From IMG/VR virus record IMGVR_UViG_3300020595_000061, positions 1 to 46,148 of that record: a stretch of DNA of 46,148 nucleotides. The stretch is one strand, 5' to 3'. This DNA comes from a virus. Position 1 is the stretch's first letter, and every line of letters starts with the position of its first letter. This document shows, in pieces, positions 666-43,478 of this stretch. The translations under genes were made by a program, and so were the position numbers. The notes under the pieces are model-generated. The model made no database searches and was not told where the DNA came from. It worked only from the letters and a program-made list of their open reading frames with translations.

Positions 666-685
666 TCGCTAGTCCCTATAGGGCA
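666..685 (+). promoter_or_regulatory. Candidate promoter for the phage T7-like RNA polymerase
   Basis: The 20-mer TCGCTAGTCCCTATAGGGCA matches two identical minus-strand copies (29488-29507 and 43459-43478) at 19 of 20 positions, while the flanks differ. The core CTATAGG equals the T7 promoter around its start site (TATAGG, start at the first G). It reads rightward into the gene at 745. Orientation agrees with the downstream transcription unit at all three copies. Confidence 0.65.
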
Positions 686-694: not shown

Positions 695-720
695 GAGCCA
701 CACTTCGTGTGTCTCTTTAA
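695..720 (+). promoter_or_regulatory. Conserved 5-bp/3-nt hairpin with CTCTTTAA (copy 1)
   Basis: GAG-c-CACAC-TTC-GTGTG-t-CTC-TTTAA: a 5-bp stem (699-703 with 707-711) and 3-nt loop, extended past a C/T mismatch by GAG/CTC. Copies at 8131 and 43582 keep the structure with a compensating base-pair change. Hairpins of this geometry form the early promoters of phage N4's virion RNA polymerase. An RNA processing site is the alternative. The gene start follows at 745. Confidence 0.55.
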
Positions 721-2184: not shown

Positions 2185-4020
2185 ATGAAACTAGTATTTG
2201 ATATAGAAAGTAACGGACTACTCGAGGAGATCACAACCATCTGGTGTATCGTCTGTCAAAACGTAGAGACTAAGGAAATCATCTCCTTCTCGGATCACGA
2301 CAGTACATTACGCAGTATCCAAGAGGGCCTTAATTACCTTGAGGCCGCTGATGTCCTAATAGGTCACAACATAATCGGCTATGATATACCTGCAATAAAG
2401 ATAGTCACAGGTCTTGATCTCTTAGATAAGAAATGTTACGACACCTTTGTCATGTCTCAAACGCTACGTTACAAACGTAACCACCTACACGGTCTGAAGG
2501 GGTGGGGTCAGAAACTAGGAGACAGTAAATTAGATTATAGTGATTGGACTCAATACACACCAGAGATGTTAACTTACTGTATTCAAGATGTAGAGCTGAA
2601 CACGAAGGTATACGAAGAGTTAATGAAGGAGTTTAAACAGCTTCACTCAAAGTTTCCCTTGATTACTAAGGGTCTTAAAGTTGAGCATGATGTCTTCAAG
2701 TTCAACACAATGGTCAGGGAGCAGGGTTGGAACTTCGACAGTGAGAAGGGTAAGGTTAGTCTAGCGGCTATGAATGCAAGGGCTGAAGAGATAAAGGGAT
2801 CTATTGAACCACACCTGGGGACACACACAGTGTTTATTGATAAAGAACCTAAGACCGCTAAGTTCAAGAAGAACGGAGAGTACACCGCAGTGACTGTACG
2901 TCTACTCTCAGAACACCTAGGGAGAGAAGTACTACCCACAGACACACACGTTATGCCTGCGGGGGCAACCTTTCAACGTAGTAAGTCAATTAAGACTAAG
3001 TTAGGTCAGACAGAGCTAGTCAAGGAGTGGTTACTAAACAGTAAAGGTTGGAAGCCCGATGAGTACACCCGCAAGAAGACCGCTTATGGTTGGTCTAACG
3101 GTGGTCCTAAGTTCACAGAGACTTCCCTAAGTAAACTAGGAGAAGTCGGTGTGATGATAGGTGAATACTACACACTACGTAATCGTATCAGTGTCATGGA
3201 TAGTTGGTTTGAGAAGTTAAACAATGGTCGTATCCACGGTAATATGTGGACTATCGGTACTCCTTCTTTCAGGGCGAGACATGAGATCATCGTTAATCTA
3301 CCGGGCATCCATGCATCCTGGGGTCGTGAGCTACGTGAGTGCTTCGCTGCTGATGATGGTGACCTGATTGTAGGTGCAGACTCAAGTGGTAACCAACTAC
3401 GTGGCCTTTGTCACTATGTGGGGAACGAAGAGTTCACTGAGGAAGTTATATTTGGTGACCAACACCAACGTAATGCAGATGCATTGGGGTGCTCTCGTCC
3501 AGTGGCTAAGTCTTTCCTGTATGCCTACTTGTTTGGTGCAGGTGATTCTAAGTTAGGTCAAGTGTTGAGTGGCAAGAGTAACTCTGCGGTTGGTAAGAAG
3601 GCTCGTGCTGACTTCGCTAGTGCTATTCAAGGTCTAGTTCAGATCAAGAGGCAAGTTGAAGGTGAGTGGAACCGTAAGCAGAATACGCAAGGGAACGGTT
3701 GGATACATGGGCTAGACGGTAGACCTGTGTTCATCAGCTCTGAGCATCAGTGCCTCAACTACTTACTGCAATCAGCTGAGGGTATTACTTGTAAAGCAGC
3801 TGTGTCATATCAAATGCAAAAGATCAAGGAAGAAGGACTAAGGGCTAAACCCCGTATCTTCTACCACGATGAGTCTGCTTGGTCTGTACACCCTGATGAT
3901 GCTGAGCGTGTTGGTCAGATACTAAAGGATAGTTTCAAAGAAGCACCTAAATGGTTTGGTGTAGAATGCATGGATGGTGGTGATGCAATGATCGGCACTT
4001 CCTATGCAGATGTTCACTAG
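2185..4020 (+). CDS. DNA polymerase, family A, with 3'-5' exonuclease (T7 gp5-like)
   Basis: 611 residues (T7 gp5 has 704). The N-terminal proofreading domain has Exo I DIESNG (residues 6-11), Exo II IGHNIIGYDIP and Exo III QDVELNTKVY. The polymerase domain has motif A around D399 (GADSSGNQLR), motif B with K442 and Y446 (AKSFLYAYLFGAG), and motif C H561-D562-E563. The Tyr in motif B is the T7-type residue. It replicates the phage genome together with the primase-helicase at 8330. A possible thioredoxin-type processivity partner is not visible. AAGGA precedes the ATG. The shorter length comes mainly from the middle of the protein. Confidence 0.95.
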   Translation: MKLVFDIESNGLLEEITTIWCIVCQNVETKEIISFSDHDSTLRSIQEGLNYLEAADVLIGHNIIGYDIPAIKIVTGLDLLDKKCYDTFVMSQTLRYKRNHLHGLKGWGQKLGDSKLDYSDWTQYTPEMLTYCIQDVELNTKVYEELMKEFKQLHSKFPLITKGLKVEHDVFKFNTMVREQGWNFDSEKGKVSLAAMNARAEEIKGSIEPHLGTHTVFIDKEPKTAKFKKNGEYTAVTVRLLSEHLGREVLPTDTHVMPAGATFQRSKSIKTKLGQTELVKEWLLNSKGWKPDEYTRKKTAYGWSNGGPKFTETSLSKLGEVGVMIGEYYTLRNRISVMDSWFEKLNNGRIHGNMWTIGTPSFRARHEIIVNLPGIHASWGRELRECFAADDGDLIVGADSSGNQLRGLCHYVGNEEFTEEVIFGDQHQRNADALGCSRPVAKSFLYAYLFGAGDSKLGQVLSGKSNSAVGKKARADFASAIQGLVQIKRQVEGEWNRKQNTQGNGWIHGLDGRPVFISSEHQCLNYLLQSAEGITCKAAVSYQMQKIKEEGLRAKPRIFYHDESAWSVHPDDAERVGQILKDSFKEAPKWFGVECMDGGDAMIGTSYADVH

Positions 4021-8130: not shown

Positions 8131-8156
8131 GAGCCACGCTATGCGTGTCTCTTTAA
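8131..8156 (+). promoter_or_regulatory. Conserved 5-bp/3-nt hairpin with CTCTTTAA (copy 2)
   Basis: GAG-c-CACGC-TAT-GCGTG-t-CTC-TTTAA. Compared with the copies at 695 and 43582 the stem has a compensating A-T to G-C change and a different loop, so the paired structure itself is conserved. It lies in the 45-base gap between the MazG-like gene and the gene at 8171. AAGAAGG, the ribosome site of that gene, begins directly at its end. Confidence 0.6.
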
Positions 8157-8329: not shown

Positions 8330-9967
8330 ATGCGACAATACAACAACTCACCTATGGTAGCCAAGCACCTCCCTTGTGGGGGGTGTGGGTCATCTGATGC
8401 TAAGTGCATTAGAGAGGATGGCTCAGGGTACTGCTTCAGCTGTGCCACTAACTTCAAAAGTACTACACCTAACCAAACACAGGACATCCAAGAGATGGCT
8501 TATCACAACCCAGTAAGCGTAGCAGAAATAGCAACATACTCATCGTACCCCTTGGCATCAAGAGGCATCAGCAAGGGAGTTATAGACCACTTCAACGTCA
8601 AGATGTCAGTAGATGAGGATGGTCGTCCTGAAGCACACTACTACCCGTACACTAAAGACAGTGCTGTCGTGGCTTACAAGGTCCGTACGTTACCTAAGAC
8701 CTTCTTCGCAGTAGGTAACTCCAAGGACCTACAGCTATTTGGGCAAGCACAAGCAATTGCAGGGAAGATCCTAGTGATCACAGAGGGTGAGCTTGACGCT
8801 CTAGCTGTAGCTCAAGCTAACTTCGATAAATACAAGAAGTTCTACCCAGTGGTTTCTGTACCTCACGGTGCCGGTGCAATGGCTGCACTGCTCGCTAATC
8901 GTGATTTCATTCGTCAGTTTGAGAGTGTAGTCCTTATGTTTGATATGGATGAGCCAGGGCAGAGGGCAGCGCATGAAGCGTGTAATATAATCGGTGCGGG
9001 TAAGGTTAAGTTAGCTAAGACGAAAGAGAAGGACCCGTGTGCAGAGCTCCTAGCTCACGGACCGTCCAGTCTTGTAGAAGCTATCTGGAACGCACAGGCT
9101 TGGTCACCCGCTGGTATTGTCATGGGTGAGGAAGTGTGGGAGATGTACCAGAAACGTAAGAACATCACTAGTATCCCATACCCTGAATGTCTCAGTGGTT
9201 TAACTGATAAACTGGATGGTATCCGTCAGGGGGAGATCACTTTGTTTACCAGTGGCACTGGCTCAGGTAAGAGTACGGTTATCAAAGAGATCATCCTCAA
9301 CCTGCTTGCAACCACTGATGAGAAAGTGGGTGTGATAGCACTAGAGGAGTCCGTTGGTGAGTCAGCAGAGAAGTTAATTGGTATGTACCTCTCAAAGCCA
9401 TTACGTAAAGGACACACTGTGACACCTGAAGAAGAACGTAAAGGTTGGGAGCATTTGTTTGCAAATGAAAACTTGATAATGTTAGACCACCAAGGTTCTG
9501 TGGCTGATGAGTCTCTCGTGGACAAGATAGAGCATATGGCACTGATGGGCTGTAAGTACCTTATCCTTGACCACATCACTATCGCTGTGTCAGAAGGTAA
9601 CTCAGGGTTGTCTGGTAATGAAGCTGTAGATAAGCTAATGTCAGACCTATTGAAGATGGTTAAGAAACATGATGTGTGGTTGGGCCTCGTTAGTCACCTC
9701 CGCAAGTCACAAGGAAAGGCTTTCGAGGAGGGCCTCATGCCCTCTATGGATGACATCAAAGGCTCAGGTAGTATTAAACAAATTAGCTTTGATATCATTG
9801 GCTTCACCAGAAACCTCGTAGCTGAGGAAGAAAGTGAGCGTAATGTTATACAACTGCGTGTCCTGAAGGCTCGATACACAGGGGACACAGGGGATGCAGG
9901 CTGTGCAAACTACGATAAGAACACTACTCGACTTACAAAAGGGGAGGTAGGGTTCTCAATGATCTAA
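8330..9967 (+). CDS. DNA primase-helicase (T7 gp4-like)
   Basis: 545 residues (T7 gp4 has 566). An N-terminal zinc-binding primase module uses C16-x-x-C19 and C35-x-x-C38. A Toprim domain follows with E152 (ITEGELDA) and D205-M-D207. A RecA-like hexameric helicase has Walker A GTGSGKST (309-316, K314) and Walker B around YLILDH. It unwinds DNA at the fork and lays primers for the family A polymerase. GAGG lies before the ATG. The next gene, the RNA polymerase, starts 17 bases downstream. Confidence 0.95.
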   Translation: MRQYNNSPMVAKHLPCGGCGSSDAKCIREDGSGYCFSCATNFKSTTPNQTQDIQEMAYHNPVSVAEIATYSSYPLASRGISKGVIDHFNVKMSVDEDGRPEAHYYPYTKDSAVVAYKVRTLPKTFFAVGNSKDLQLFGQAQAIAGKILVITEGELDALAVAQANFDKYKKFYPVVSVPHGAGAMAALLANRDFIRQFESVVLMFDMDEPGQRAAHEACNIIGAGKVKLAKTKEKDPCAELLAHGPSSLVEAIWNAQAWSPAGIVMGEEVWEMYQKRKNITSIPYPECLSGLTDKLDGIRQGEITLFTSGTGSGKSTVIKEIILNLLATTDEKVGVIALEESVGESAEKLIGMYLSKPLRKGHTVTPEEERKGWEHLFANENLIMLDHQGSVADESLVDKIEHMALMGCKYLILDHITIAVSEGNSGLSGNEAVDKLMSDLLKMVKKHDVWLGLVSHLRKSQGKAFEEGLMPSMDDIKGSGSIKQISFDIIGFTRNLVAEEESERNVIQLRVLKARYTGDTGDAGCANYDKNTTRLTKGEVGFSMI

Positions 9968-9984: not shown

Positions 9985-12069
9985 ATGGATTGGTCAGAGA
10001 ATGTAGAGTTATACTTAAGATTAAAGCTTACGGGAAACCAAAGTAGGGCATCCCATGGAGCTAAGTTACTAGCCAAGCACCCGGAGTCTCACAAGAGGCT
10101 CCAAGAGTTTGTACTGGTAGCTCACTCTGTACTCACCAGGCAGGCTAAAGGTGTAAACGATAAGATACTTTGTAAACTAACAGTGACAAGCATCGCTATA
10201 GGTAAGAAGGTGCTGACTTCTCTAACCAACTCAAGGAGGCATAGTTGGAAAGATGAAGTGCGCCTTGGGGATATGTTCATTGAAGCATTCTACCGACTCG
10301 GGTACGTGGACCTCACTAAGTCAGTCTTCAAGTCAAGTAAACCTGTTGAGATAATAATACTCGACACATTCCCGACAGGAATACCAGAGGCTGTAGCTAA
10401 GATGTCTTTACATGGTGTCTGGAGTGAACGCCCTAGGCACATCAATAGGGTCGAGCAGATCATACAGTTTACAAGGGATAGTCCTAAGTTTGTCAAGGGG
10501 GTTGTCAAAAGGTGGGATGAGTTACTCGATGGACCCTTTAAGCCCCTACTAGCAACTGACGCTATTCAGGCAGTGGATAAGCTACAGCAGGTACCTTGGG
10601 TCATTAACAAGGACATACTGAAGGCTGTCAAGAGAAACCCACACAAGTTCTACAAGGAAAATGATAAGTCCCCTGAGAACTTGTCTAAGAAGATAGATTA
10701 CATTTATACAATAACAAAAGCAACAGCACTATCACAGGTTGATCAGTTCTTCTATGCTCTGGATATTGACTACCGTGGTAGGGTGTATTACGTAGAGAGT
10801 TATATGAACTTCCAAGGTTCTGACCTAGCTAGGGGTCTCCTAAGCTTCTCTAATGCAAAGCTAGTAACACCTAGTGGGTTACGTTGGATTAAGATACATT
10901 GTGCCTCCTCGTACAACGAGAGCTACCTTAAGGGTGACATACCCACTTGGTGTACTTCTGACTACAAGACACACTTAGATACTGAGGGACTGGATGATAT
11001 CTCTGTAGACAAGATGACACTAAGGGATAGGGAGTTATGGGTTGATAATAACTATGCTAAAGTCTACCTGACTGCAATGAAGGGACACTTGTACAACTGT
11101 GAGAAACCTGTAGCGTTCCTGGCGAGTTGTATTGAACTCTTTAACTACAAGGAGAGTGATGGTCACTACTACTCTAACCTACCCATACCAGTAGACGGTA
11201 GTAATAATGGATGGCAACACCTGGGCGCTATCTCTAAGGATGAGCAGACAGCGGGTCTCGTTGGTCTGGTTCCCGTGGATATCCAGAATGACTTCTATGT
11301 GCAGACAGCTAAGATGTTAATATCCATAACAAAGGATGAAACCCGTAGGAACATACTGGATCTTATGCCTATGAAGAAGATCAGGAAGGGTGTTAGCAAG
11401 AGGGGCAGCATGACAAGGGCGTACTCAGCAGGTGCCCAGAAGATCTCTGAGAATATGTTCCAAGATTGCATTAAGTATGATTACTGTGTTGAGTATGGGA
11501 TAACAGAGGATGTCTGTAAGGGTCTTGCAAGGGATCTGGTTAAGGCTATAAAGTTAGTTTGCCCTGGGCCCTTGAAGACTATGAAGTTCTTACAGCAACT
11601 AGCTACGAATAGGTTAGATCAGGGCTATGGTTACCTCACATGGACATCCCCATCAGGGTTCCCTGTGATCTACACCTGCAACCACCAACGCTCAGAGAAG
11701 CAAAGGGGTACCATCAGTGGGCTTGGTCAGATCAATCACGTAGCTAAGGTGGATACCTTTGTGGCTGACCGTAGGGGTTTCATGTGTGGTATCTCACCTA
11801 ACTTCATTCACTCACAGGATGCAGCCCACTTGAGTCTAGTTATACAACAGTTCGATGGTGACTTTGGGGCAGTGCACGATAGCTTCAGTACCCATGCATC
11901 AGATGTAGAAGAGTTACTTACAATAACTAAGAGTGTCTTCATAGGTATGTACAACGAAGATAATTATTTTAATAACATTCAAGCTAGAATAGAGGCCACG
12001 GCTATCCAGCCAGAGCTAGGTAGTTTGAACATAGAAGATGTGGGGAAGTCAGATTACTTCTTTGCATAA
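9985..12069 (+). CDS. T7-like single-subunit RNA polymerase with a short N-terminal domain
   Basis: 694 residues (T7 RNAP has 883). The motifs are DYRGRVY (262-268), motif A D404-G-S-N-N-G, motif B K472-R-G-S-M-T-R-A-Y480, a region aligning with the specificity loop after SPSGFP, and motif C H631-D632-S. The carboxyl end SDYFFA matches the T7 foot (SDFAFA). The GR motif sits about 159 residues earlier than in T7, so the N-terminal promoter-binding domain is reduced. It should transcribe from the CCCTATAGG-type promoters at 666, 29507 and 43478 and drive the late arm. AAGGTGAT precedes the ATG. Confidence 0.95.
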   Translation: MDWSENVELYLRLKLTGNQSRASHGAKLLAKHPESHKRLQEFVLVAHSVLTRQAKGVNDKILCKLTVTSIAIGKKVLTSLTNSRRHSWKDEVRLGDMFIEAFYRLGYVDLTKSVFKSSKPVEIIILDTFPTGIPEAVAKMSLHGVWSERPRHINRVEQIIQFTRDSPKFVKGVVKRWDELLDGPFKPLLATDAIQAVDKLQQVPWVINKDILKAVKRNPHKFYKENDKSPENLSKKIDYIYTITKATALSQVDQFFYALDIDYRGRVYYVESYMNFQGSDLARGLLSFSNAKLVTPSGLRWIKIHCASSYNESYLKGDIPTWCTSDYKTHLDTEGLDDISVDKMTLRDRELWVDNNYAKVYLTAMKGHLYNCEKPVAFLASCIELFNYKESDGHYYSNLPIPVDGSNNGWQHLGAISKDEQTAGLVGLVPVDIQNDFYVQTAKMLISITKDETRRNILDLMPMKKIRKGVSKRGSMTRAYSAGAQKISENMFQDCIKYDYCVEYGITEDVCKGLARDLVKAIKLVCPGPLKTMKFLQQLATNRLDQGYGYLTWTSPSGFPVIYTCNHQRSEKQRGTISGLGQINHVAKVDTFVADRRGFMCGISPNFIHSQDAAHLSLVIQQFDGDFGAVHDSFSTHASDVEELLTITKSVFIGMYNEDNYFNNIQARIEATAIQPELGSLNIEDVGKSDYFFA

Positions 12070-13125: not shown

Positions 13126-16100
13126 TTAATGAGCGTAGTATTGGTACACATTACGTATGCTCTCCCTTATCTTAGCTTGACCAGCCTTAGCATTCTTCTT
13201 GATCTTACTGAGGACTTGCTTGGTGTCTAGGTAGTCACTTAATAGCTTGTTAAAGTGCTGCACCTGTTTAGCTGTCGCTGTCTTTGATCCAAACTCAAAC
13301 CCAACATCATCAGCCATTCTCTTCTTTATGAGAAAAGCCATCCTTTCGGCTTTCTGTTCTACATACTCAGTCTCACTATCCCTGCCGGGATCTGCAGCTT
13401 CTGCTAACATATACGCAAGGTTCTCTGGGACGAAGAAGGGAACATGATCTCTTCCCTTAAAGGAACCCCTATCTACAACCTCCGTCAAGTAGCCCATCAT
13501 CTGAGACTCCCCATTGACTTCAAGGGACACCTTTGTATCTGGTGACACCCTAGATAGCTTCCTCTTAAGAGCAACTTCTGCTCTCTTTCTTGCATCTTCA
13601 TACTCCCCAAAAACATCCCAATCCATAGTAGCTTTTATCCAGTTCTTATTAGACTCCTTGACAATGACATCAAATCCATTAGCATCCATCTTAAGCGCAT
13701 CGTAGATTGGAAATGCGTGAGGGTTCCCGTTGCTCGCAGATATCTGCCTAGCCATAGACTCCCCAGTGTGCGTTAGCGCAATAACAGCAGCGTCTGTTGA
13801 CTGGGGTGGTGACACTATAGATGAGTTAACTGCCTTCATACCCACTTTGATTTCATCACCCCCAGGCTTCTCTATGATTGTAGCCGAAGCAGCAGTCCTC
13901 CTATCAGCACTATAGGATTGTGCCTGCCTCTGCATTCGATCACCCGCAGCGTTAGACATAGAGTACTTGATAGGTTCATTAGCTTTTGTAACAAAGCCAC
14001 CCATCTGTAAGACCATCCCAGCAGGGCCCATTATCTCTAATGGTATATCAGCTAGTGCACTCAGGTATGCTACAGCTTTCATGGTAGCCCGAGCCAGCAT
14101 AGCCTCATAGGAAACCACCTGTTTCAAGCCAGTGATGTAAGGTTCTAGTAAGATCGCACCTACATTATCAGGGTTAGATGACGATCTCATCAATGACTCA
14201 TAGGCATCCTTGAAACCAACAAGGTCCCTGCCCTCAAGTGCAGCCTCTCTCCTCTCTGGTTCCAGTGTTGCCTCTGCGTCTTTAGCCTCTTCATACAAGA
14301 CCGCTAGAAACTCATTGAGGTTCTTCTTGATACTCTGAAGTGCACGACCGTAGCCGAAGGTCATTGTTGTGTACTTATTAAGAGCTTTCTCAGAGAATAG
14401 CCTACTCGCCACTGCTGTAAGAGCTGCGGGGGCATCTAAGTAGTCACCGTACTCCAACCCCACAGTGTTAATATTACCTACTAATGTGTCCTTGAGTTTG
14501 TCACGTATGTCGCCATTGTCTAGTAGCTTCTTATTACCAACCCTCAGTACTCCTGTCAAGAATGACAGGGCGTAATCTCCAATCATCATACCAAAGGCTG
14601 CTAGACCGTTGGTTTTACCATCAGCGTAAGCATTAAACTGTGAAGCATGGGGTTTCTTGTTGACGATAACATTATCATAGTACTTGACAAAATCCATGAG
14701 GCCATCCATGTACAACAGACCATCGTCACCTGAATTATCTATCATCTCAAGTAGTTCTGCATCCTCCTTCGGATCAAGTCCAAGTTCATTGAACTGTGGG
14801 AACTCTGGTGTCTTAAGTCCAACCTTGTTCTCGACAGCCTCATGTATTGCATCAGTTTGTACCACAGACATGGTACCATCGAGGGTACTTTGTAATCGCC
14901 TACCCCACCTGACCAACTGAGGGGTCGCTAGGGTCAATGCCTTGTCACGCTCAACGGGCAGCATCATGTCACCATCCTTTACTAAGTGCATTGCGTACAT
15001 CTCACGTAAGTTGGCTTCTTGTCGAGAGTTAGGCCTAACCATAACAGGTACAGGATTACCCAGTGCAAACCTAACCAGCTTAGAGCTTGTGGGATCTAGC
15101 CCTGACTGTTCTACAAAGACCCTGCCAGTAGCACTTTGCATAGCCCATGTCAAGTAATTAACACCCTTCCTGTTCTGAGCAAGTGCATGGTAGTACTGCG
15201 CTATACTATTACGTAACTCAGACATTGCTTTCTCTGCATCATAGGGTTTATTCAGGGTAGCTGTCTTCTCCTTCGCTCTAAATGCAGCCATCTTCCTTGG
15301 GCCAAACCCTAGTATATTAGCGTACACTTCCTGCTGTGGGGTAAGGGCAGCACCTGCCTGGTATGCTGCAAGGGTTGGTAGTATGATTGAGGTTACCAAC
15401 CTAAGTCTCGCAGGGATAACTGCGTGTGCTATTTGACTCAAGTTGAACATAGCTTGCTTGATGAGACCATCCCCTTTTACCTTCTTAATGGGCTTTATGA
15501 AGAAGCGGGACATCGGGGTTTTTCCCACGCCCTCTCGGACTGGGGGTGTCTTGTAGGGCTCCACCGCAGGTTTGTAGAAGATCCTCTTCCTTAGTGCCTT
15601 ACCCGCCCCTAGTTGGGTAATACCCAGTGGTGTTAAGCTAAACTTAACTTCACCTGTCTTACCTTTAGGTGACACCCGCCTCATCAGCTCAGCGCCTTCC
15701 ACTCCCTTATTGACATTGTAGTACAGCTCTAGGAATGCATCACCAAGCACCGTTGCTTGCTCATCACTTATACTTGTAACACTATCTGGACCACCCGTTA
15801 GTAGCTTCCATTCCCTGTTAATATTATTACCAAGATCCTTGTTCATAGCACTCTTGACATAAGGCTTCTCAAAGGGACCTGCTTGATCTAAGAGACCGTC
15901 ACCTGAGAAGATACGACCTTGCTCATCCTCCACAGCATCTACGCTGTCTAGTCTGTTTAGGAGAGTGTCCTCAGCAACAGCAGCTCCTATTGCAATGTAA
16001 TCAGGGTTGTAACCCACGCCCCAGTCAGGGTTACTGGCATCAAAGGCTTGGTGATCATTAGAGATCACAGAGGTCAGGGTGGAGAAACCACGATCCCCTT

Positions 16101-16572
16101 GGACACGCTTACCCTCCATTGTTTGCCTTTCAATACCGAACTTATAATCACCAACGTGGACAGCTGAGGTAGTGGCTTTAGTCCTAAGCGCAAAACCACC
16201 ATCACGTTCCCCGTCTGATTCAAACGCATTACTGATGTCCCAACCACCATATGATAGACGGGAGTCTTTCTCAGGGTAGTATAGGTTTTGCCTATCAACA
16301 TCTGATTCACTCGCGTCTACCTTCTCTTCCGCAGTCATCCTCCCTTGAGCTAAAGCTTGCTGCTCTTGCTGATAGGCTAATGTATCCTCAACAGGTGCAC
16401 CCCTAAACACTTGAGGGGCATCTGCTGTTACGCCTTGGATAGGTACATTAGTTGGTTGCAGTATGCTCTCTGAGAGAGAGTCTGAGGGTGTGTCCAAAAG
16501 GGTACTGAGGTCCATGCCTTCTTGATGGTCTGAAACCTGTCCCGGTTTTGTTGTTATGTTTACTCTAGCCAT
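13126..16572 (-). CDS. Putative virion-packaged single-subunit RNA polymerase (N4 vRNAP-like core)
   Basis: 1148 residues, last gene of the late virion block. The T7/N4 polymerase motifs occur in order: SATGRVF (480-486) followed by the T7-like pattern P..SK.VRFALGNP; motif A D651-G-K-T-N-G; motif B K729-x3-K733-Y-T-T-M-T-F-G-Y741-G; and motif C Y957-D958-A. Spacings are 82 (A-B) and 225 (B-C); T7 has 94 and 181. The N4 virion enzyme's catalytic core is about 1100 residues. Late position, beside internal virion proteins, suggests it is packaged and ejected to read early genes. Residues 20-30 (MDLSTLLDTPS) repeat the start of the neighbouring 1323-residue protein. The start at 16572 has GGAG; assignment is from motifs only. 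Confidence 0.72.
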   Translation of the reverse strand: MARVNITTKPGQVSDHQEGMDLSTLLDTPSDSLSESILQPTNVPIQGVTADAPQVFRGAPVEDTLAYQQEQQALAQGRMTAEEKVDASESDVDRQNLYYPEKDSRLSYGGWDISNAFESDGERDGGFALRTKATTSAVHVGDYKFGIERQTMEGKRVQGDRGFSTLTSVISNDHQAFDASNPDWGVGYNPDYIAIGAAVAEDTLLNRLDSVDAVEDEQGRIFSGDGLLDQAGPFEKPYVKSAMNKDLGNNINREWKLLTGGPDSVTSISDEQATVLGDAFLELYYNVNKGVEGAELMRRVSPKGKTGEVKFSLTPLGITQLGAGKALRKRIFYKPAVEPYKTPPVREGVGKTPMSRFFIKPIKKVKGDGLIKQAMFNLSQIAHAVIPARLRLVTSIILPTLAAYQAGAALTPQQEVYANILGFGPRKMAAFRAKEKTATLNKPYDAEKAMSELRNSIAQYYHALAQNRKGVNYLTWAMQSATGRVFVEQSGLDPTSSKLVRFALGNPVPVMVRPNSRQEANLREMYAMHLVKDGDMMLPVERDKALTLATPQLVRWGRRLQSTLDGTMSVVQTDAIHEAVENKVGLKTPEFPQFNELGLDPKEDAELLEMIDNSGDDGLLYMDGLMDFVKYYDNVIVNKKPHASQFNAYADGKTNGLAAFGMMIGDYALSFLTGVLRVGNKKLLDNGDIRDKLKDTLVGNINTVGLEYGDYLDAPAALTAVASRLFSEKALNKYTTMTFGYGRALQSIKKNLNEFLAVLYEEAKDAEATLEPERREAALEGRDLVGFKDAYESLMRSSSNPDNVGAILLEPYITGLKQVVSYEAMLARATMKAVAYLSALADIPLEIMGPAGMVLQMGGFVTKANEPIKYSMSNAAGDRMQRQAQSYSADRRTAASATIIEKPGGDEIKVGMKAVNSSIVSPPQSTDAAVIALTHTGESMARQISASNGNPHAFPIYDALKMDANGFDVIVKESNKNWIKATMDWDVFGEYEDARKRAEVALKRKLSRVSPDTKVSLEVNGESQMMGYLTEVVDRGSFKGRDHVPFFVPENLAYMLAEAADPGRDSETEYVEQKAERMAFLIKKRMADDVGFEFGSKTATAKQVQHFNKLLSDYLDTKQVLSKIKKNAKAGQAKIRESIRNVYQYYAH

Positions 16573-16581: not shown

Positions 16582-19500
16582 CTATATCTCCCAGTCATTT
16601 TTATCCTTACCAGTTATCGCATCCCTAACTTTATGTCGGAGTGCAGTGAACGGACCTATTGGTGTACCTTTGAGTAACTTGTTCACACCCATCTCTGTAT
16701 CTTGTTGCATCGAGTCAGTGACACCACCCGCTAAGCTTACTATGGCACTCAGTGCAGGCGCTTGCCCTACGACTTCACCCGCAGCCCACTCACCCACATT
16801 GTCAGTTCTGCTTTGATAGATTGGGAAGACTGTATTGATTACGCGCTCCCCTGTCCCCAAGAGACCTGATGAGTTGATAGCCCTCCTGCCCTTCCCGAAG
16901 TCATCGAGGTAAGGGTTCTCACCACCAAACTTCAAGCGATCCTTAAGCTCTTGAGATGCAAACCCCATGGCAACCATGAGTACCATCATAGAAAAAGCTT
17001 GATATGTCATCTCTGGGCTACCTCGTTTAACGTACTCACCCCATAGCTTGGGGATGAATGTGGATTGAAACACTGAGATAAAACCTTGGAACTGTGTGAA
17101 TAAAGCAAAGCGTGGATCTTGGTAGATCAATGGGCGGTTAGCTGCACCGGGCATCATAATAGCATCGTTAATAAAGTTTGTAGTAGCTACTTGCGTTAAC
17201 TCTTTTAACCGAGCCATATCTACTTCAGTAGCTGTATTGCTTTCCACTTTAATACCAAGTATAGTCAACTCATTGATCCTACCAGTGTCTAATCCAAGGT
17301 TACGAAGGTGCTCGTATGCTTCTTCAACAGCATTAGTCAAGGGGTAGCCTTCAGGGTGACCACTGATTGTCTCCAAGTGATTGAACATGTAGTCCCAGGC
17401 GATACCTGCACGTACAGCACGAGTCATTTGTGTAAACCCTTGCAATCCATTCCACTTAAAGAACACTGAGAGTAAGCTCTGGCGTAGTGCGTTAGTCTCA
17501 GTAACACCTGTCTTAGACGCTGCACCAACTTGGTTGTCAAAGTAACCCAGATCACGTAGTTGTTTCATAGCCGCTGACTCTTTATTGGAGAAGTGCTTCC
17601 TTGTAACGACAGATGACAACTCACCCCCGGCATTGTAGAACATGTTGCCAATCTCTTCACCCATGGCCTTAACGCCACCCTTCCCAAAGATCTGTTCATT
17701 AGAAAGACTCTTCATGGTTAACGATAGCTCCACAAGAGAGCTGACAGTAGCAAGTGGAAGGCCCACGAATACCATGTAAGTTATGAAGTTCTTCTGTATC
17801 CTTTGGATAGACTTACCAAACTCAGAAGTAGCCCTCTTGTAGTTACCAGATTCAGCATCGAGGTAATCCCTCATCTGCCTACCTAGTTTATCAACAGCTT
17901 CTTGAGAAACACCCTGAGCCTTAGCCTCTTCAAGTAATTGATTAATAACACTACCATTGACACCAACATACCTCTGGTATCCTTGGTACCTCGCAGCGGA
18001 CTTAGCAGCATAATCTACGTTAGTAAAGAAATCTCTCTCCATGAAGTCAGCAAACTTTTCATTCTGAGCAAGACCTAAACTACGTGATCTGTGAGAGCCC
18101 GGTGTGGGTGTGCCCTTAGTTACAGAAAATGCACCATCACCTTCGAGTAGTCCATCAATATCAGCCTTCAAGGGATTCTCTAAGATATTCTCTACAATGT
18201 CGTTAGCAGCTCTATCAGAGAGTCTGTACTGGCTCTTAAGTAATGTTTTAAACTTAACCTGCTCTCTTGCAACAGCTGCTTTGTCTAAAGTCTTAAAAGT
18301 AGAAAGATAGTTCTTGACTTTACCCAACTCACCCCCAGCTTCCTTGTAGTACTTATTCTGATCAGCCCACATGGTTTGTGCAGTCTTCTCAGCATCCTCA
18401 AGTACCTTCTTGTAGTCCTGAGCAAGGTTAGGGTCTACCTCAGCACCCTTACGTCTTGCATTTATCTTATTGATAGCTTGGGGGATCTTACTGTAATCTG
18501 GATTACCCTCCTTATCAACAGCAGCTTGCCCTATCTCATAAATCTCATCACTAATACGTCTTCTATCCTTGTCAGTGACCCTCTTCCCATAATTCAACTT
18601 AGCGTAGATCTCAGTTGAATCACCCACCATGTTCTCATACTTAGCTGCAAGATTCCCCTTGAACTCCTCGAAAGTAGCACCTGAGAATGTCTTCTGTAGT
18701 TCACCACCAAACATACCTGATAGTTTCCTAACAGCTCTTGATTGTGACTTCAAGTTTTCTGTAAAGGCATTACGAGTTGAGCCCCTCCAAAGTCCAGGGA
18801 TCTCCGAGACACCCTTCCATAGCAGGTCACTTAAGTTCTTAGCCTCTGCCTTAAGATCTCCTCGAGCACCTTTGTCTCTAAAGCTGTCAGTCTTGTTAGT
18901 CTGAGACTTTGAGTTAGCTCTAGCTTCATCAGCATTCTCTTCATTACTAGCGATCTTGCCATACTTAGCTAGCTCCTCTTGTGCACGAGTGCCTGAGTCA
19001 GATGTACCTGAACCATCTGCTGTACTACCTTCCCATACAGCTTGCTCTGTCTTGGCTTGATCCCACAGACCACCAGCACCACTGAAGGCACCACCGATAG
19101 AGCCACCAGCTACGGCAGCTGAGATCATCCTCTCAGACGCATCAGTGAAGTCAAAGCTATCATCCTTCAGGTGAGCAGCAGTGTACCCTATGAGTTCCTG
19201 TGTTGCCTCTGTGACTGATTCACTTGCTGCACCAATACCAGCGCCCTTCAGCATCTCACCTATGCGCTCACGGCTTCTTATTTGCTTCTTTACGATGTCA
19301 GCCATTTCCGTAGAGACCTTAGCTAGTTGTTGCTTAGTCATACGAGCAGCTGCCTCTTCAGTAATACCCAACCCCTTAAGCTCATCAGAACCTGCTTTGA
19401 GTATCTCCTTAGGTGTTCCCATCTTACCAAAAGTCTTTAACAGAACCCTACCACCAAAGACATCTATAGCGCCCTGCATAACACCACCAGTTAACGCTAG

Positions 19501-20553
19501 TGCAGCTGATTTGGCACCATCCGCTTGCTCATTCCAAATAGCTCCAGTGTAAAGGGAAGCTGGCACTGACAAGGATGCACCCAGGGTAGGTCCCGCAGCT
19601 GCAATAGAAGCCATTGTGGTTGCCATGTATGGTAGTGACATAGCTATATTATTACCTACATACTCAAAAGCATCTCCTGCATTCTCAACTTCCTTATAGT
19701 CAAGTAGTACTTTAGCGCGTCGAGACATCTCATCACCTGCGCGGTACACACCAGACTCAGCCCAGTTCTCAAAAGAAGCATCACCTATGGAGTTACCTAT
19801 TAAAGAAGCGAAACCGTAACCAGCCTCTTTGACACCTACTAATGCGGAACCGAGGGAGCTGCTGAAAGGACTGTATGCCTTGTTCATGATGTTCCTGTCA
19901 TTACTCCTGTACTTCACGATGTCTGAGAGGTAAGCATCCGGGTTCCTCGCGTACTCTGCCTCGTTGATAGCCATTTCTTTGAACACCATAGGGTCATAAC
20001 CCTCTGATACCATAGCCTGGTTTATCTCTGATGCAAGAGCATCGTATTTATCTTGGTTAGGGTCAGAGTACGATGAAGACTTGATGAACTTACCAAACGC
20101 TACAGACTCTAGTTGGTCTGCTGTAACACCCCCAACAGGTTGGAAGACATCGGCTATCATCATTTGCTCGCCAACATCCCTACCTTGAGAGTCCACTACC
20201 CGACCCGTCTTGCGATCATGCGCTGCATTAACATCCATGTCTCGAATGTAGAAGGGTCCATTTTCCTTCATGAATTTACTAAATGCCTTTAGTGACCCAG
20301 TACCTCCTGCGGTTCCCGGTTTGTATGTAGCTCCCCCTGTTTTATCTCTAAACATCTTACTCACTTCAGGTGCATCGAACCCTTGGACCCTATAACGGTT
20401 ACCATCAGCTCCCTCAAATGTATCAACATCAAACATTTTAGTGATTGGTATTAAACCTTGTGGGTTTTCTGATTGTTCAGATGCGTTAACCACTGAGGGA
20501 TCAACCCCAGTGGTTATTGCAGAAGGAGTGTCAAGCAGTTTACTTAAGTCCAT
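16582..20553 (-). CDS. Internal virion/ejection protein with N-terminal nuclease-like domain
   Basis: 1323 residues, almost the length of T7 gp16 (1318). Residues about 36-140 resemble staphylococcal nuclease: D42-V-D44-T-F, R55, D60-A-P-E63 and R118 align with catalytic Asp19/21, Arg35, Asp40, Glu43 and Arg87. A hydrophobic Ala/Gly-rich stretch (MSLPYMATTMASIAAAGPTL) and two later hydrophobic segments could form part of an ejection channel. T7 gp16 has a transglycosylase at this end, and none is seen here. It begins MDLSKLLDTPS, shared with the next gene. The Shine-Dalgarno is GAGG. Confidence 0.75.
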   Translation of the reverse strand: MDLSKLLDTPSAITTGVDPSVVNASEQSENPQGLIPITKMFDVDTFEGADGNRYRVQGFDAPEVSKMFRDKTGGATYKPGTAGGTGSLKAFSKFMKENGPFYIRDMDVNAAHDRKTGRVVDSQGRDVGEQMMIADVFQPVGGVTADQLESVAFGKFIKSSSYSDPNQDKYDALASEINQAMVSEGYDPMVFKEMAINEAEYARNPDAYLSDIVKYRSNDRNIMNKAYSPFSSSLGSALVGVKEAGYGFASLIGNSIGDASFENWAESGVYRAGDEMSRRAKVLLDYKEVENAGDAFEYVGNNIAMSLPYMATTMASIAAAGPTLGASLSVPASLYTGAIWNEQADGAKSAALALTGGVMQGAIDVFGGRVLLKTFGKMGTPKEILKAGSDELKGLGITEEAAARMTKQQLAKVSTEMADIVKKQIRSRERIGEMLKGAGIGAASESVTEATQELIGYTAAHLKDDSFDFTDASERMISAAVAGGSIGGAFSGAGGLWDQAKTEQAVWEGSTADGSGTSDSGTRAQEELAKYGKIASNEENADEARANSKSQTNKTDSFRDKGARGDLKAEAKNLSDLLWKGVSEIPGLWRGSTRNAFTENLKSQSRAVRKLSGMFGGELQKTFSGATFEEFKGNLAAKYENMVGDSTEIYAKLNYGKRVTDKDRRRISDEIYEIGQAAVDKEGNPDYSKIPQAINKINARRKGAEVDPNLAQDYKKVLEDAEKTAQTMWADQNKYYKEAGGELGKVKNYLSTFKTLDKAAVAREQVKFKTLLKSQYRLSDRAANDIVENILENPLKADIDGLLEGDGAFSVTKGTPTPGSHRSRSLGLAQNEKFADFMERDFFTNVDYAAKSAARYQGYQRYVGVNGSVINQLLEEAKAQGVSQEAVDKLGRQMRDYLDAESGNYKRATSEFGKSIQRIQKNFITYMVFVGLPLATVSSLVELSLTMKSLSNEQIFGKGGVKAMGEEIGNMFYNAGGELSSVVTRKHFSNKESAAMKQLRDLGYFDNQVGAASKTGVTETNALRQSLLSVFFKWNGLQGFTQMTRAVRAGIAWDYMFNHLETISGHPEGYPLTNAVEEAYEHLRNLGLDTGRINELTILGIKVESNTATEVDMARLKELTQVATTNFINDAIMMPGAANRPLIYQDPRFALFTQFQGFISVFQSTFIPKLWGEYVKRGSPEMTYQAFSMMVLMVAMGFASQELKDRLKFGGENPYLDDFGKGRRAINSSGLLGTGERVINTVFPIYQSRTDNVGEWAAGEVVGQAPALSAIVSLAGGVTDSMQQDTEMGVNKLLKGTPIGPFTALRHKVRDAITGKDKNDWEI

Positions 20554-29487: not shown

Positions 29488-29507
29488 TGTCCTATAGGGA
29501 CTAGCGA
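29488..29507 (-). promoter_or_regulatory. Candidate late promoter for the T7-like RNA polymerase
   Basis: On the minus strand this reads TCGCTAGTCCCTATAGGACA, identical over 20 bases to the copy at 43459-43478 and 19 of 20 to 666-685. It lies 50 bases upstream of the nozzle gene and points into the tail/internal-protein operon. The CTATAGG core matches the T7 start region. Confidence 0.7.
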
Positions 29508-36084: not shown

Positions 36085-37152
36085 TTACTTAAGGCCGTAA
36101 ATAGCTCCACAACCCAATGGGTTCTTAACTTCAAGCGTGGTCTCTTCTACCAGCATACCAACAGTAGAGTCACCCTTCTGGCCCACATCTACCTCGGCCA
36201 AAGGACGCAAGGTTGCAATTGCAAACCACTGAGGGTCATACACAAGTGCACATGAGTCAGAGAAATCATTTGCAGTACCAGCAGTACCAGTCTGGAGACC
36301 CATGATGTAGTTTGGAACTACCATCAGATCACCGAAGTCAGACATGTAGATATCAACAGACTGACGTAACTTACCGTTCTCATCAATGTTACGAACAACA
36401 CCAGTGTCACTAACCATTAGGTCAGAGAAGTCACGGCGAAGCTTAGGGGATAACATAATCTTAGTCGCCTTACCACCTTGCTCGTAAATCTTCTGCATAG
36501 TACCGTCAATGTCAGTCAAACTCAAGGCAACTCGTGAAGAATCGGCAAGCAAGGTAGGTACGGCAGTTCCCTTACTAGCAGTGGTTGTCAGTGCAGTACC
36601 TGAAGCGTAAGTACAGGTGGTAGAGTTATTCACGAATGACTGGTAACCACCCATAGTGCGAGTGCCAGAGCCACTAGCGACTTGATAGCCGTTAACAAGA
36701 TCATGCTCAACGTCACGACGAAGCTCAGTACCACGCTTCTTCAACTGATAGGCATACTCATCAGCAACACCTGCTTGATCTACTGCTCGGCGAGTGCCGG
36801 AGACAGCGATGGTCTTACCGTTAATCTGAGTGTAGTTACCCAGACGAGTACGGAAAGGGCCAACTGGGTTGTAAGCAGCGCCACCTTCAGAGCCGCCAGC
36901 ACCAGGTTGTTCGTAATTAGCACCATCTACAAGCTTAGAGTTGCCGGGTGCAGCAAGCTCATCAGTCTGCCACTCATGAAAGATTGCAGTAGCTTTGCTT
37001 TTACCGATAGACGAAAGGAATGGAGTCTCATCACGAGTGATAAGGGAGATAAAGTTAGCAAGATCTTCACGTTGTGAAACATTGCTGCTATTAGTTCCAG
37101 AGGCAACGCCTCCAGCTGGTCCTGTGGTAGTTCGACCGCCAATTGTGGGCAT
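36085..37152 (-). CDS. Major capsid protein, SU10/DUF5309 type
   Basis: 355 residues. The N-terminal part REDLANFISLITRDETPFLSSIG with FHEWQTDEL is typical of the SU10-type (DUF5309) HK97-fold capsid family. The P-domain region and the C-terminal beta sheet (CGAIYGLK at the end) follow. It assembles the icosahedral shell on the scaffold encoded just upstream. AAGGA precedes the ATG, and a strong terminator follows. There is no sign of a -1 frameshift product. Confidence 0.88.
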   Translation of the reverse strand: MPTIGGRTTTGPAGGVASGTNSSNVSQREDLANFISLITRDETPFLSSIGKSKATAIFHEWQTDELAAPGNSKLVDGANYEQPGAGGSEGGAAYNPVGPFRTRLGNYTQINGKTIAVSGTRRAVDQAGVADEYAYQLKKRGTELRRDVEHDLVNGYQVASGSGTRTMGGYQSFVNNSTTCTYASGTALTTTASKGTAVPTLLADSSRVALSLTDIDGTMQKIYEQGGKATKIMLSPKLRRDFSDLMVSDTGVVRNIDENGKLRQSVDIYMSDFGDLMVVPNYIMGLQTGTAGTANDFSDSCALVYDPQWFAIATLRPLAEVDVGQKGDSTVGMLVEETTLEVKNPLGCGAIYGLK

Positions 37153-37173: not shown

Positions 37174-38265
37174 TTAAAGTTTCAGAGAGTTTGCTGCATA
37201 TTCCCGCAGAAAAGCCATCTGGTCATCAGAGGAAGCATTTTCATGGAAAGCTCTTGCCTTCGTCATCTTGGATGCGTCCTGCTTCTGACGATTGGGTGAC
37301 TTCGCCTTTTTAGTAGGTACTGCTTTCTTTGAAGGAGCAGCCTTACGTTTGGCTTGGCCCTTAGTGACACCTTGTTTCAACACACGGTAATCATTTAGTA
37401 GCCGAACAATGTTAGGATCAACAATAGAGTCTACAAGCTCTTCAGACACACCTTCACCTACGGCAAAACTACGTATACTAGCTGCTAGGTCATGGTTAAA
37501 ACCAGGTAACTGTATTTCAATATTTTCATTAAAGTAAGTTAGTTTCTCTTCCCAGAGTTGTTCCTGAATAGACTGTTGTTGTTCTTTCAACTTCCCTTGT
37601 AAGCCTTCACGCTGCTTGCGAGCATCCCAGTATCTCTTCTGGATTTGTTCACGTTGATCCTTCAGTTCGCTAACCTTGTAAGTATCCCCATCAACACGAG
37701 CCTTATCAATCTCAGACTCAACATCATGGTATTCTTTAGCAAGGTTTTGTTCAGTTCCTACTAGAATTGCAGCAGAGGCGTTACCAAGTTCTTGCACTTC
37801 AGCTAGAGCTTTTGTTCTCTCTGCATCATGTACTTTCTTAGCTTCACCTAGTTCACGACCCTTTCTACTAAGTGAGATGTCAGTCTGATAGCCTTTCAGG
37901 AGATCCGCAAAGGACACATCCATCTCTTCACCATCAATCTTAACACGGACTCTAGCATCCAGATCTAAGTCATCAGCAGTAAACACATCGGTTTCTTGGG
38001 TAGCCTCGGCATCCTCATCCTCTATCTCAACTTCTTCTTCCTCATCTCCCTCTTCAGTAACGGTTTCTTCAGACTCTTCAGGGCCTTCTACTTCATCTGA
38101 TTCCACCGGGTCAACCTCTGGAACTTCCCCTATAGGTAGCGAAGCTTCGTTCTCAAGGAAATCTGAGTTACTTAGCACAGCATCTAGGAGGTTCTGTTCG
38201 GTCTGACCGTTATCGGACATCTGCACATTGTCATCCATAGTGGGTAGAGTAGTGTTGTCTGTCAT
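37174..38265 (-). CDS. Capsid scaffolding protein
   Basis: 363 residues: a very acidic N-terminal third (runs of Glu/Asp around residues 50-90), a charged coiled-coil middle (about 140-240, rich in Glu/Lys/Gln) and a basic Lys/Ala-rich C terminus. This layout and the position directly before the capsid gene match podovirus scaffolds that guide shell assembly and then leave. GAGGG precedes the ATG. Confidence 0.85.
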   Translation of the reverse strand: MTDNTTLPTMDDNVQMSDNGQTEQNLLDAVLSNSDFLENEASLPIGEVPEVDPVESDEVEGPEESEETVTEEGDEEEEVEIEDEDAEATQETDVFTADDLDLDARVRVKIDGEEMDVSFADLLKGYQTDISLSRKGRELGEAKKVHDAERTKALAEVQELGNASAAILVGTEQNLAKEYHDVESEIDKARVDGDTYKVSELKDQREQIQKRYWDARKQREGLQGKLKEQQQSIQEQLWEEKLTYFNENIEIQLPGFNHDLAASIRSFAVGEGVSEELVDSIVDPNIVRLLNDYRVLKQGVTKGQAKRKAAPSKKAVPTKKAKSPNRQKQDASKMTKARAFHENASSDDQMAFLREYAANSLKL

Positions 38266-38836: not shown

Positions 38837-41056
38837 TTAGGTTGGTTGTTGTCCTTGCATCATTGCCACCATCTCTCCTCCAGATATCTGACCTTGTGAT
38901 GTAGGTTGTTCCATTGGTTCTTCTACGGGTGCTGCTTTCCCACCACCCATTATAACCGACACCTTCCCAAGGATCTGCTCATACGTTGGGTGTTCAGGAA
39001 CATCTGTACCTGCTTTGTAGGCTTCTAGTGCTAGGTCACCCCACTCTTGGTAGTGCTTATCTATAGCGACTGCCAGTTGCTTGGTGTTATCTTGCACAGT
39101 ATTAGCACTTTGAGCATCCGTGTATCTGACATTAGCTTCTGACAGATCAACATCAGCTTTAGTCTTCCTGTTCTGAAGTTCCTGTGTCTCCTGAGCACTC
39201 TTAGTTTGCGATTCGACTGCCTTAGCAGCGTTCTCCTTAAACTCATCAGTAGTGTAATCTTCTAGGAAATCATTACTTGACAAACCCATGGCCTCTAGTA
39301 GTTTAGTCGCAAGTACCGCAGGGGCTTCTGGTCTAACAATACTACCAGCTCCAGCTGAGTTCAACGAGGGTAATATCTGTTGACCCACTGTTGTTAGTTT
39401 GTTAATCAGATTAGCATTACTATTCTCACCAATGTCCAATATTACATCACACTCCATACGATCCGGTAGACTCGCACAGTCCACAACTTCTGTCATACCA
39501 CCAACACAGACATTCATCTGCTTGGTTTGCTTACGGATAGACGAGTACACACCTTCACATAGACGCTTGAGACCTGTCTCAGCAAACCTACGGGCAATGT
39601 GTTGGATACGTTTCTGGGAAGCAGACTGAACAGCAGCCATCTTACCTTCACTGTTCCCAGAGACATACAGTGTGTCGTTTAGACCTTGAGCAGCCTTAGA
39701 CATACCTGTCGCTTGCTCCTTAATGATCTGGAGGTGTTGCAATAGTGGTACTGTGCCAGTCGAGATGGTCTCGGGGGGTAATGCAGCGACAGCACCCTGG
39801 GGACTACCGTTAGTCGGTATGATCTGCTTTGGCTTCATGTGCTGTAATGCAGAGAAATCTACTACATTTGGATCAGCTAGCTTAGGGCTGTAGTTAGTTA
39901 GGTAGGTGTTCTCCACGAAGCCCCTTAGAATAGCCGTAGCAGCCAATGTGGACGAACGGGTAAGGTCAGCTATGGATAGTCCGTAGAACTCGTGAGGGAT
40001 GTCTATAGGAGACAGAGAGGCTACCTGTATAAAATCACAGTCCTCCTCATGGAACACCTTACTGCCAATCATAATAAATCGTTTAAGCTCAGCAATGCCA
40101 TCACCATCACGGTCAACATTCATCCAGCATTCAGTCACAGGTAGTTCACGGTTAGCCTCTACGGGCATACTGTCAGTGGCACCTTGCCAGTAAGACATAC
40201 CAACCACCTCTTTACGGGCAGCAACATCTTGACTATAGCGGGTATTCCCTGACCACGCCATACCACCTAACTCATCCCACTCGTCATCACTGATAGTCTC
40301 AGCAATGTCAGGCCAGTGCTTACGGATCTCACTACGTGTCATGTCTGTTTGTATACCAACAAAGTTAGCATCATCAATAGATGTAGCATCACGGGAAATA
40401 CGAAAGTTCTCTGGGGGGATGTTCTCTAGGCGAACCTTAGAACGATCCACTGTGCGCTTAATGCGTACATTCACGTAGACAAGTTCAGCATCACCAGTAG
40501 CATCTACCTCATTCTCAAACTCCAAATCACCTACGATCTCTACCTCTCCATCAGACAAGAGCTCATCAAGTTTTACTTGAGATATAACTTCATACTCTTC
40601 AAAGGTTGTGTAGTAATCTTCTACACAGTCCCACCTAATAATACCATTCTTCCAAAGGAGGGCAGACTTAATCCATGTTTGGATCAACTCCCATCCATTA
40701 TTCTGTTTAAACAAGCAGTAGTTAGTTACCAATGAGGCATCATGGGCTTGCTTGTGTGCACCGGGGGAGGCTGCATAGGGGTTGAACTTAGCAAGCTTAC
40801 CATTGTTTAGGAACAAATCACACAGCACAGCCGTGTAAGCCTCAACAGTCTCTGTGGTAGACGTATCTACGATGGCGCTCACACCTTGAGGCTTTAAGTG
40901 GCCCTTAGCTACACCAGCGTACTCATAGGTACTCTTCTCACGCTCCTGAGAGAGGTCTGAGGAGTTCAACCAATCACCGACACTGTTAGCGATACCTTGT
41001 TCGACTAAGTTTGATAGTTGCTCGTCTGTTACTTTTTCTTTATATCCGTGACTCAT
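38837..41056 (-). CDS. Portal (head-tail connector) protein
   Basis: 739 residues from ATG 41056 (MSHGYKEK), which overlaps the preceding stop (TGATG). A start four codons earlier, at 41068, is less likely. The patterns IPPENFRISRDATSIDDANFVG and LWKNGIIRWDCVEDYY are typical of podovirus portals of roughly N4-like size. A Gln-rich helical C terminus (ELQNRKTKADVDLSEANVRY) may form the barrel. It forms the dodecameric DNA gate that the terminase docks on. Confidence 0.85.
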   Translation of the reverse strand: MSHGYKEKVTDEQLSNLVEQGIANSVGDWLNSSDLSQEREKSTYEYAGVAKGHLKPQGVSAIVDTSTTETVEAYTAVLCDLFLNNGKLAKFNPYAASPGAHKQAHDASLVTNYCLFKQNNGWELIQTWIKSALLWKNGIIRWDCVEDYYTTFEEYEVISQVKLDELLSDGEVEIVGDLEFENEVDATGDAELVYVNVRIKRTVDRSKVRLENIPPENFRISRDATSIDDANFVGIQTDMTRSEIRKHWPDIAETISDDEWDELGGMAWSGNTRYSQDVAARKEVVGMSYWQGATDSMPVEANRELPVTECWMNVDRDGDGIAELKRFIMIGSKVFHEEDCDFIQVASLSPIDIPHEFYGLSIADLTRSSTLAATAILRGFVENTYLTNYSPKLADPNVVDFSALQHMKPKQIIPTNGSPQGAVAALPPETISTGTVPLLQHLQIIKEQATGMSKAAQGLNDTLYVSGNSEGKMAAVQSASQKRIQHIARRFAETGLKRLCEGVYSSIRKQTKQMNVCVGGMTEVVDCASLPDRMECDVILDIGENSNANLINKLTTVGQQILPSLNSAGAGSIVRPEAPAVLATKLLEAMGLSSNDFLEDYTTDEFKENAAKAVESQTKSAQETQELQNRKTKADVDLSEANVRYTDAQSANTVQDNTKQLAVAIDKHYQEWGDLALEAYKAGTDVPEHPTYEQILGKVSVIMGGGKAAPVEEPMEQPTSQGQISGGEMVAMMQGQQPT

Positions 41057-43336: not shown

Positions 43337-43397
43337 CAGGTGCACTGTGAGTACACTGTGAGTCCACTGTGGGGGACACTGGGAGAATAGAGGGGGT

Positions 43398-43458: not shown

Positions 43459-43478
43459 TGTCCTATAGGGACTAGCGA
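43459..43478 (-). promoter_or_regulatory. Candidate late promoter for terL and the head genes
   Basis: On the minus strand the 20 bases TCGCTAGTCCCTATAGGACA are identical to the copy at 29488-29507. It points toward terL, portal, scaffold and capsid. The CTATAGG core matches the T7 initiation region. Confidence 0.7.

Follow-up and report, generated by a model that had tools for sequence, protein, structure and literature searches.

A compact homolog of the N4-type virion RNA polymerase encoded alongside a T7-like RNA polymerase in a marine phage lineage

The viral record IMGVR_UViG_3300020595_000061 from IMG/VR, analyzed over its full length of 46,148 nucleotides and referred to here as the window, carries genes for DNA polymerase, exonuclease, ribonucleotide reductase, primase/helicase, a T7-like RNA polymerase (RNAP), and thymidylate synthase on its plus strand. 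Starting near 43 kb and ending at 13.1 kb, the minus strand encodes terminase, SU10-type portal, scaffold, capsid, tail fiber, and internal proteins (Table 1). The last gene of this late virion block is an ATG-initiated open reading frame (ORF) of 1148 amino acids (aa), and its product, the compact polymerase, is almost certainly a catalytic single-subunit RNAP of the type of the phage N4 virion RNA polymerase (vRNAP); it lacks the extra 2,400 residues of the N4 protein and is paired with an intact single-subunit RNAP. An initial annotation, made from the sequence alone, had proposed a second, probably packaged RNAP at the end of the virion block of a T7-like phage. The block-terminal position holds, and as in N4 the gene converges on the early block. 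"Second" is also correct, since a separate gene in the window clearly encodes a T7-like RNAP. The description "T7-like phage" was loose: a T7-like RNAP is present, but the portal is of the SU10 type, and among isolates Roseobacter phage CRP-7, not T7, is nearest.

The residues named in the initial annotation were all exact (G483-R484-V485-F486, D651 in DGKTNG, K729-x3-K733, M737-T738, Y741-G742, and D958 in YDA), and in an independent three-group alignment all four motifs share columns with N4 vRNAPs and T7-like RNAPs. Aligned one to one, R424, D559, R666/K670, Y678, and D951 of N4 correspond to R484, D651, K729/K733, Y741, and D958. The pattern P..SK..RFALGNP downstream of GRVF is also present, but its label as T7-like is better replaced by N4-like (N4: GRMQMLGKYNPQSAKLVRE). 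Single-sequence searches of Pfam, PHROGs, and PDB with the window protein gave no match, so the first reading caught something that standard annotation misses; when 50,697 phage records were searched by tblastn, with this protein and three relatives as queries, no match was returned either.

Using the window's T7-like RNAP, CRP-7 gp30, and two relatives as bait, we collected 79 loci. A long opposite-strand ORF lies directly beyond the RNAP gene at all but four of the 51 loci inspected; in three of the exceptions the sequence stops less than 90 bases from the RNAP gene, and it is short in the fourth as well. The compact polymerase is kept in essentially every relative having sequence past the RNAP gene. 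Direct searches found two close homologs of the window protein (67 to 70% identity), and BLAST linked these three proteins, 36 full-length proteins, and CRP-7 gp33 into one connected family. It comprises at least 40 proteins of 1.1 to 1.33 kaa, encoded in related viral contigs convergently to a T7-like RNAP gene. R484, D651, and D958 are invariant in all 40 homologs, down to about 15% identity, so that the motif match is not due to chance; Y741 and R501 are kept in 39 of the 40 and K498 in 37. Ten of 35 members matched phrog_414 (RNA polymerase; best 4.7e-8), three matched phrog_2206 (virion RNA polymerase; best 3.9e-11), and eight matched PF00940 (best 0.0013). Over 35 genomes, pairwise distances of the compact polymerase and the T7-like RNAP are correlated (Mantel r 0.52, 0 of 2000 permutations), indicating that the two polymerases travel together.

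The Roseobacter phage CRP-7 (MK613349) is the only cultured relative that we found, and the lineage is marine. Its gp33, annotated as hypothetical, occupies the same position beside the T7-like RNAP (gp30), which is the only RNAP its authors noted (PMC6918029). The window protein and gp33 are too divergent for a BLASTP match, and a shallow hhalign comparison gave no clear link; gp33 is joined to the family via intermediates (through L093, 24% identity). In the CRP-7 branch, the glycine of motif A has been lost (DARQSNAG). Three CRP-7-like proteins (L108, L113, and L118) have an altered motif A (DMDLN.GG), IFDN at motif C, and no P-x-S-K, and their activity may possibly be changed or lost.

Profile comparison places the family closer to N4 vRNAP than to T7 RNAP. 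Against 18 Schitoviridae vRNAP domains, hhalign gave the whole family a probability of 99.3 and a P value of 1.3e-20, versus 2.7e-9 against T7-like RNAPs. The window's own six-member subclade gave 4.4e-9 against the N4 type and no similarity to T7-type RNAPs in the same kind of comparison. Among the controls, eight column-shuffled profiles gave P values of 0.69 to 0.99 and a reversed profile gave 0.026. In a tree that does not place the root, the compact family and the Schitoviridae vRNAPs form two separate clades.

An AlphaFold2 model built from 35 sequences (pLDDT 76, pTM 0.77) is predicted to have the right-hand fold of single-subunit RNAPs, which T7 and other Autographiviridae RNAPs share together with the catalytic residues. 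Foldseek ranked T7 RNAP (3.8e-15) and mitochondrial RNAPs as the best matches in PDB and scored N4 mini-vRNAP (2po4) at 1.1e-11; VIA-align gave Z scores of 26.2 for T7 RNAP (8dh5_E) and 22.6 for the N4 mini-vRNAP-promoter complex (3c46_B). The latter alignment covers 763 residues over model positions 109 to 1148, so nearly the whole protein is polymerase, in keeping with the earlier estimate of one-third the size of the N4 protein and close to its catalytic core. The profile and structure checks suggested with the initial annotation thus both favor a second single-subunit RNAP of the N4 vRNAP type, as do the conserved catalytic residues. Homology to N4-type RNAPs is, in our judgment, very nearly certain, and the conserved motifs make it highly probable that the protein is catalytic.

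Two distinct classes of repeated promoter-like element occur in the window, which lends support to the proposed combination of an N4-like early program with a T7-like late one. The element GAGCCAC(A/G)CTNNG(T/C)GTGTCTCTTTAA has three exact copies, all intergenic and on the plus strand (chance expectation, none). Each folds into a triloop hairpin with a 5-bp stem and, beyond a 1x1 mismatch, a further 3 bp. This topology is limited to these three sites in the window (0.4 expected), all ahead of early-strand genes, and the hairpins resemble N4 vRNAP promoters. Among the copies in the window and its relatives, two stem pairs, a small number, are changed on both sides (A-T to G-C and A-T to T-A). 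The hairpins are conserved in close relatives. The relative G002 has four sites with the same topology and stem sequence, and the relative G004 has four with the same topology and an unrelated sequence (ttgTgttgc-TTC-gcaacCcaa). In G004 (IMG/VR, locus L129), whose polymerase is 35% identical to that of the window, the four copies of GTTGC-TTC-GCAAC stand in tandem at contig positions 57666 to 57824 and overlap a small ORF (85 aa) on the same strand. This 13-mer is identical to the N4 hairpin at position 96. A simple triloop scan of the N4 left end gave C-TNC-G hairpins at 96, 565, and 4554, the same in number as its three known vRNAP promoters and located in the same region (PMC4496689); their equivalence to P1 through P3 is our reading. 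N4 vRNAP needs a 3'G:C5' closing pair and a loop of the form 3'A...5'G on the template strand (PMC4496689), and most copies follow this rule, including elements 1 and 3 (template 5'-C-GNA-G). The C-TNC-G rule by itself was too weak to discriminate in distant relatives.

The second element, CGCTAGTCCCTATAGG(A/G)CA, resembles a T7-type promoter and stands ahead of late and replication genes in three exact copies, with about 0.03 matches expected when up to 3 mismatches are allowed; it is conserved at matching places in the relatives G001 to G003. The shorter sequence CTATAGGG by itself is only modestly enriched (8 versus 1.8 expected); specificity comes with the longer motif. Having two classes of element is consistent with two polymerases, and we infer which polymerase uses which element.

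We therefore propose the following course of infection. The compact polymerase would be produced late, together with the virion proteins; it would be packaged into the capsid and, when the next cell is infected, be ejected along with the DNA. Early transcription would then start at the triloop hairpins and proceed into early and replication genes, the second hairpin leading to expression of the primase and the T7-like RNAP, which would take over replication and late genes from the CGCTAGTCCCTATAGG promoters. Packaging, ejection, the pairing of polymerases with elements, and independence from host RNAP are what we infer. With a T7-like RNAP on the early strand and a second polymerase expressed late, packaging for the next infection makes the most sense, as in N4, and we regard it as likely. 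That the hairpins are promoters of the compact polymerase seems to us the better-favored reading of these elements, and the account as a whole, from a packaged, catalytically competent vRNAP homolog that reads hairpins to the T7-like RNAP, is probable.

The position of the gene in the late block would also suit an active RNAP that is never packaged and that, leaving the early genes to host RNAP, transcribes late genes in the infection that produced it. However, the early strand encodes the T7-like RNAP and the late genes already have T7-type motifs ahead of them, which leaves the compact polymerase without an obvious late task; moreover, no hairpin element precedes the late genes, and the gene holds the position of N4 gp50. 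We consider this scenario improbable. A former polymerase that now serves as a noncatalytic structural ejection protein, in a role like that of T7 gp16, would account for a large, very divergent protein in the last position of a block of ejection proteins, as well as the missing motif A glycine in the CRP-7 branch. However, in a dead enzyme one would not expect the catalytic residues to stay invariant or nearly so, as they do across the 40 members, and we find this reading very unlikely. The single-sequence searches that came back empty are what a protein resembling polymerases in its motifs only would produce; the profile, fold, and family evidence contradicts this, and its chance is negligible.

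The function of the hairpins is less firmly assigned than the identity of the protein. They might instead be operators of a dimeric regulator or RNA leader hairpins, which would be compatible with a real polymerase. As 9-bp imperfect palindromes, they could also be kept by a dimeric operator, and element 1, which closely follows a T7-type motif, would be part of the leader RNA of that motif; however, elements 2 and 3 have no nearby plus-strand T7-type motif. The same topology with an unrelated sequence in G004, matching the N4 13-mer in all four copies, and the adherence of most copies to the N4 rule for closing pair and loop also argue against operators or leaders, which we judge a possible but unlikely explanation. 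Several observations nonetheless weigh against the promoter assignment or against close correspondence to N4. Element 2, with the loop TAT in place of TNC, follows the N4 rule only in part; this type of hairpin was not recognized in the more distant relatives or in CRP-7; the extra 3-bp arm past the mismatch is absent from N4; and the N4 vRNAP promoters all lie in the left 10% of the genome, whereas the window hairpins are spread. On the protein side, the residues differ at the sites aligned with the N4 promoter contacts K114, R119, W129, and R904, and D901, aligned with D878, is the sole identical contact, in regions where the alignment is weak. The N-terminal (1000 aa) and C-terminal (1400 aa) domains of the N4 protein have no counterpart in the compact polymerase. 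The neighboring 1323-aa protein was considered as a source of the missing domain and rejected, as it gave no match.

Table 1. Positions of genes, catalytic residues, and promoter-like elements in the window
Feature	Position	Strand	Basis
Compact N4-type virion RNA polymerase homolog, 1148 aa	13126..16572	-	ORF, 40-member family, hhalign, AF2 model
R484 codon, T/DxxGR motif (= N4 mini-vRNAP R424)	15121..15123	-	invariant 40/40; aligned to R424
D651 codon, motif A DGKTNG (= N4 D559)	14620..14622	-	invariant 40/40; aligned to D559
Motif B, K729-x3-K733...Y741 (= N4 R666, K670, Y678)	14350..14388	-	Y741 39/40; alignment
D958 codon, motif C YDA (= N4 D951)	13699..13701	-	invariant 40/40; aligned to D951
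Hairpin element 1, GAG-C-CACAC-TTC-GTGTG-T-CTC, candidate vRNAP promoter before gene at 745	695..715	+	repeat and fold
Hairpin element 2, GAG-C-CACGC-TAT-GCGTG-T-CTC (compensatory change), upstream of primase/helicase and T7-like RNAP	8131..8151	+	
Hairpin element 3, GAG-C-CACAC-TAC-GTGTG-T-CTC, before small early genes	43582..43602	+	
Motif CGCTAGTCCCTATAGGGCA, before replication genes	667..685	+	three-copy repeat; conserved in relatives
Motif CGCTAGTCCCTATAGGACA, before late gene 27273-29438	29488..29506	-	three-copy repeat; conserved in relatives
Motif CGCTAGTCCCTATAGGACA, upstream of terminase-portal-capsid block	43459..43477	-	three-copy repeat; conserved in relatives
T7-like single-subunit RNA polymerase, 694 aa, early strand	9985..12069	+	PF00940 E 1.2e-54, 186 bits (cutoff 22); phrog_414 E 9e-100
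Family A DNA polymerase	2185..4020	+	phrog_17 E 3.1e-92
Primase/helicase	8330..9967	+	phrog_239 E 2.1e-151
Virion structural protein, 1323 aa, adjoins polymerase, probable ejection protein	16582..20553	-	phrog_6958 E 9.6e-26
Internal virion or tape-measure-like protein, 663 aa	20573..22564	-	phrog_25241 E 4.8e-9
Major capsid protein	36085..37152	-	phrog_1328 E 2.8e-77
Scaffolding protein	37174..38265	-	phrog_3927 E 2.2e-20
SU10-type portal protein	38837..41068	-	PF23899 E 6.5e-126
Terminase large subunit	41367..43019	-	phrog_2 E 9.7e-26

The compact polymerase and its 1323-aa neighbor share an N-terminal motif (MDLSTLLDTPS versus MDLSKLLDTPS), also found in L001, which may be a shared packaging tag or the result of a 5' duplication. 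The N terminus of the neighbor (FDVDTFEGADGNRYRVQGFDAPE), conserved in the neighbors from all clades examined, is like the staphylococcal-nuclease signature DGDT...R..G.DAPE; a nuclease-like domain within an ejection protein would be unusual. The tail-fiber gene (31481 to 34123, minus strand) contains internal 21-bp repeats at 33366 to 33994 and terminates in a Peptidase_S74 chaperone domain. In the 647-base gap between terminase and the early genes, 12-bp tandem repeats (CTGTGAGAGATC) and 13-bp repeats (GGGATAACCTATA) occupy positions 43089 to 43457, a possible replication origin or terminal region. Both ends of the window (1 to 300 and 45384 to 46148) carry 69-bp repeats, which encode protein repeats of the WYLNGKLHREDGPA type, and a nearly identical duplication of 391 bp is present (45412 to 45711 and 45803 to 46102); the contig probably breaks within this end repeat.

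The compact polymerase shares with N4 gp50 and other Schitoviridae vRNAPs a homologous core with TxxGR and motifs A, B, and C, and with N4 gp50 its place at the end of a leftward late virion block that converges on the early genes. Both systems have triloop hairpins ahead of early genes. The differences are equally clear. N4 gp50 and the Schitoviridae vRNAPs that we inspected have about 3,000 to 3,600 aa, versus 1148 aa here, and form a separate clade, and the N4 partner polymerase is a gp15/gp16 heterodimer, in place of which the window has an intact single-subunit RNAP. Schitoviridae vRNAPs have been described as proteins of about 3,500 aa that are unique to that family (PMC12633501, PMC7650795), and the compact protein has neither this size nor the large terminal domains. 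Schitoviridae are further defined by genomes of 59 to 80 kb and three RNAP genes, including the gp15/gp16 heterodimer (PMC7650795); the 46-kb window, with its SU10-type portal, has one T7-like RNAP and the compact homolog. Virion and nonvirion polymerases in one phage, as proposed here, are also described for P23-45, with its tail-tape-fused virion RNAP, and for phiKZ and AR9 (PMC10770324, PMC10612078), although those enzymes are related to cellular multisubunit RNAPs and have a different fold. The "putative vRNAP" of StenR_269/Zobellviridae (PMC10747016) was named for its size, helix content, and lack of cysteine, not for motifs, and was not used here.

We found no description of the compact class in the literature searched, which left most subscription papers out of reach. 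An IMG/VR survey dropped vRNAP-associated proteins of less than 2,500 aa as mostly T7-like RNAPs, reducing 3,786 to 1,984 (PMC10654107); the compact class would have been lost at this step, which suggests a blind spot. One analysis found a heterodimeric RNAPII in all but two vRNAP phages and inferred that vRNAPs are older than heterodimeric RNAPs (PMC4496689), and a compact vRNAP homolog together with an intact single-subunit RNAP is the combination that this argument lacked. If the hairpin assignment is true, compact polymerases with hairpin promoters could serve as single-stranded-template enzymes. A naturally minimal vRNAP in a different phage would also make testable how the giant N4 protein passes through a narrow tail and what its outer two-thirds do. 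Because a compact vRNAP relative occurs here with likely hairpin promoters before early genes, the strategy of N4 probably extends beyond the family to which N4 belongs. More tentatively, and with somewhat less than even confidence, we suggest that a widespread and nearly uncultured marine lineage runs on two RNAPs, a packaged compact vRNAP with hairpins and a T7-like enzyme with T7-type promoters, and that this may be the simpler architecture from which, or beside which, the N4 program of giant vRNAP and split RNAPII arose, in which case the extra 2,400 residues of the N4 protein would be unneeded for packaging and ejection.

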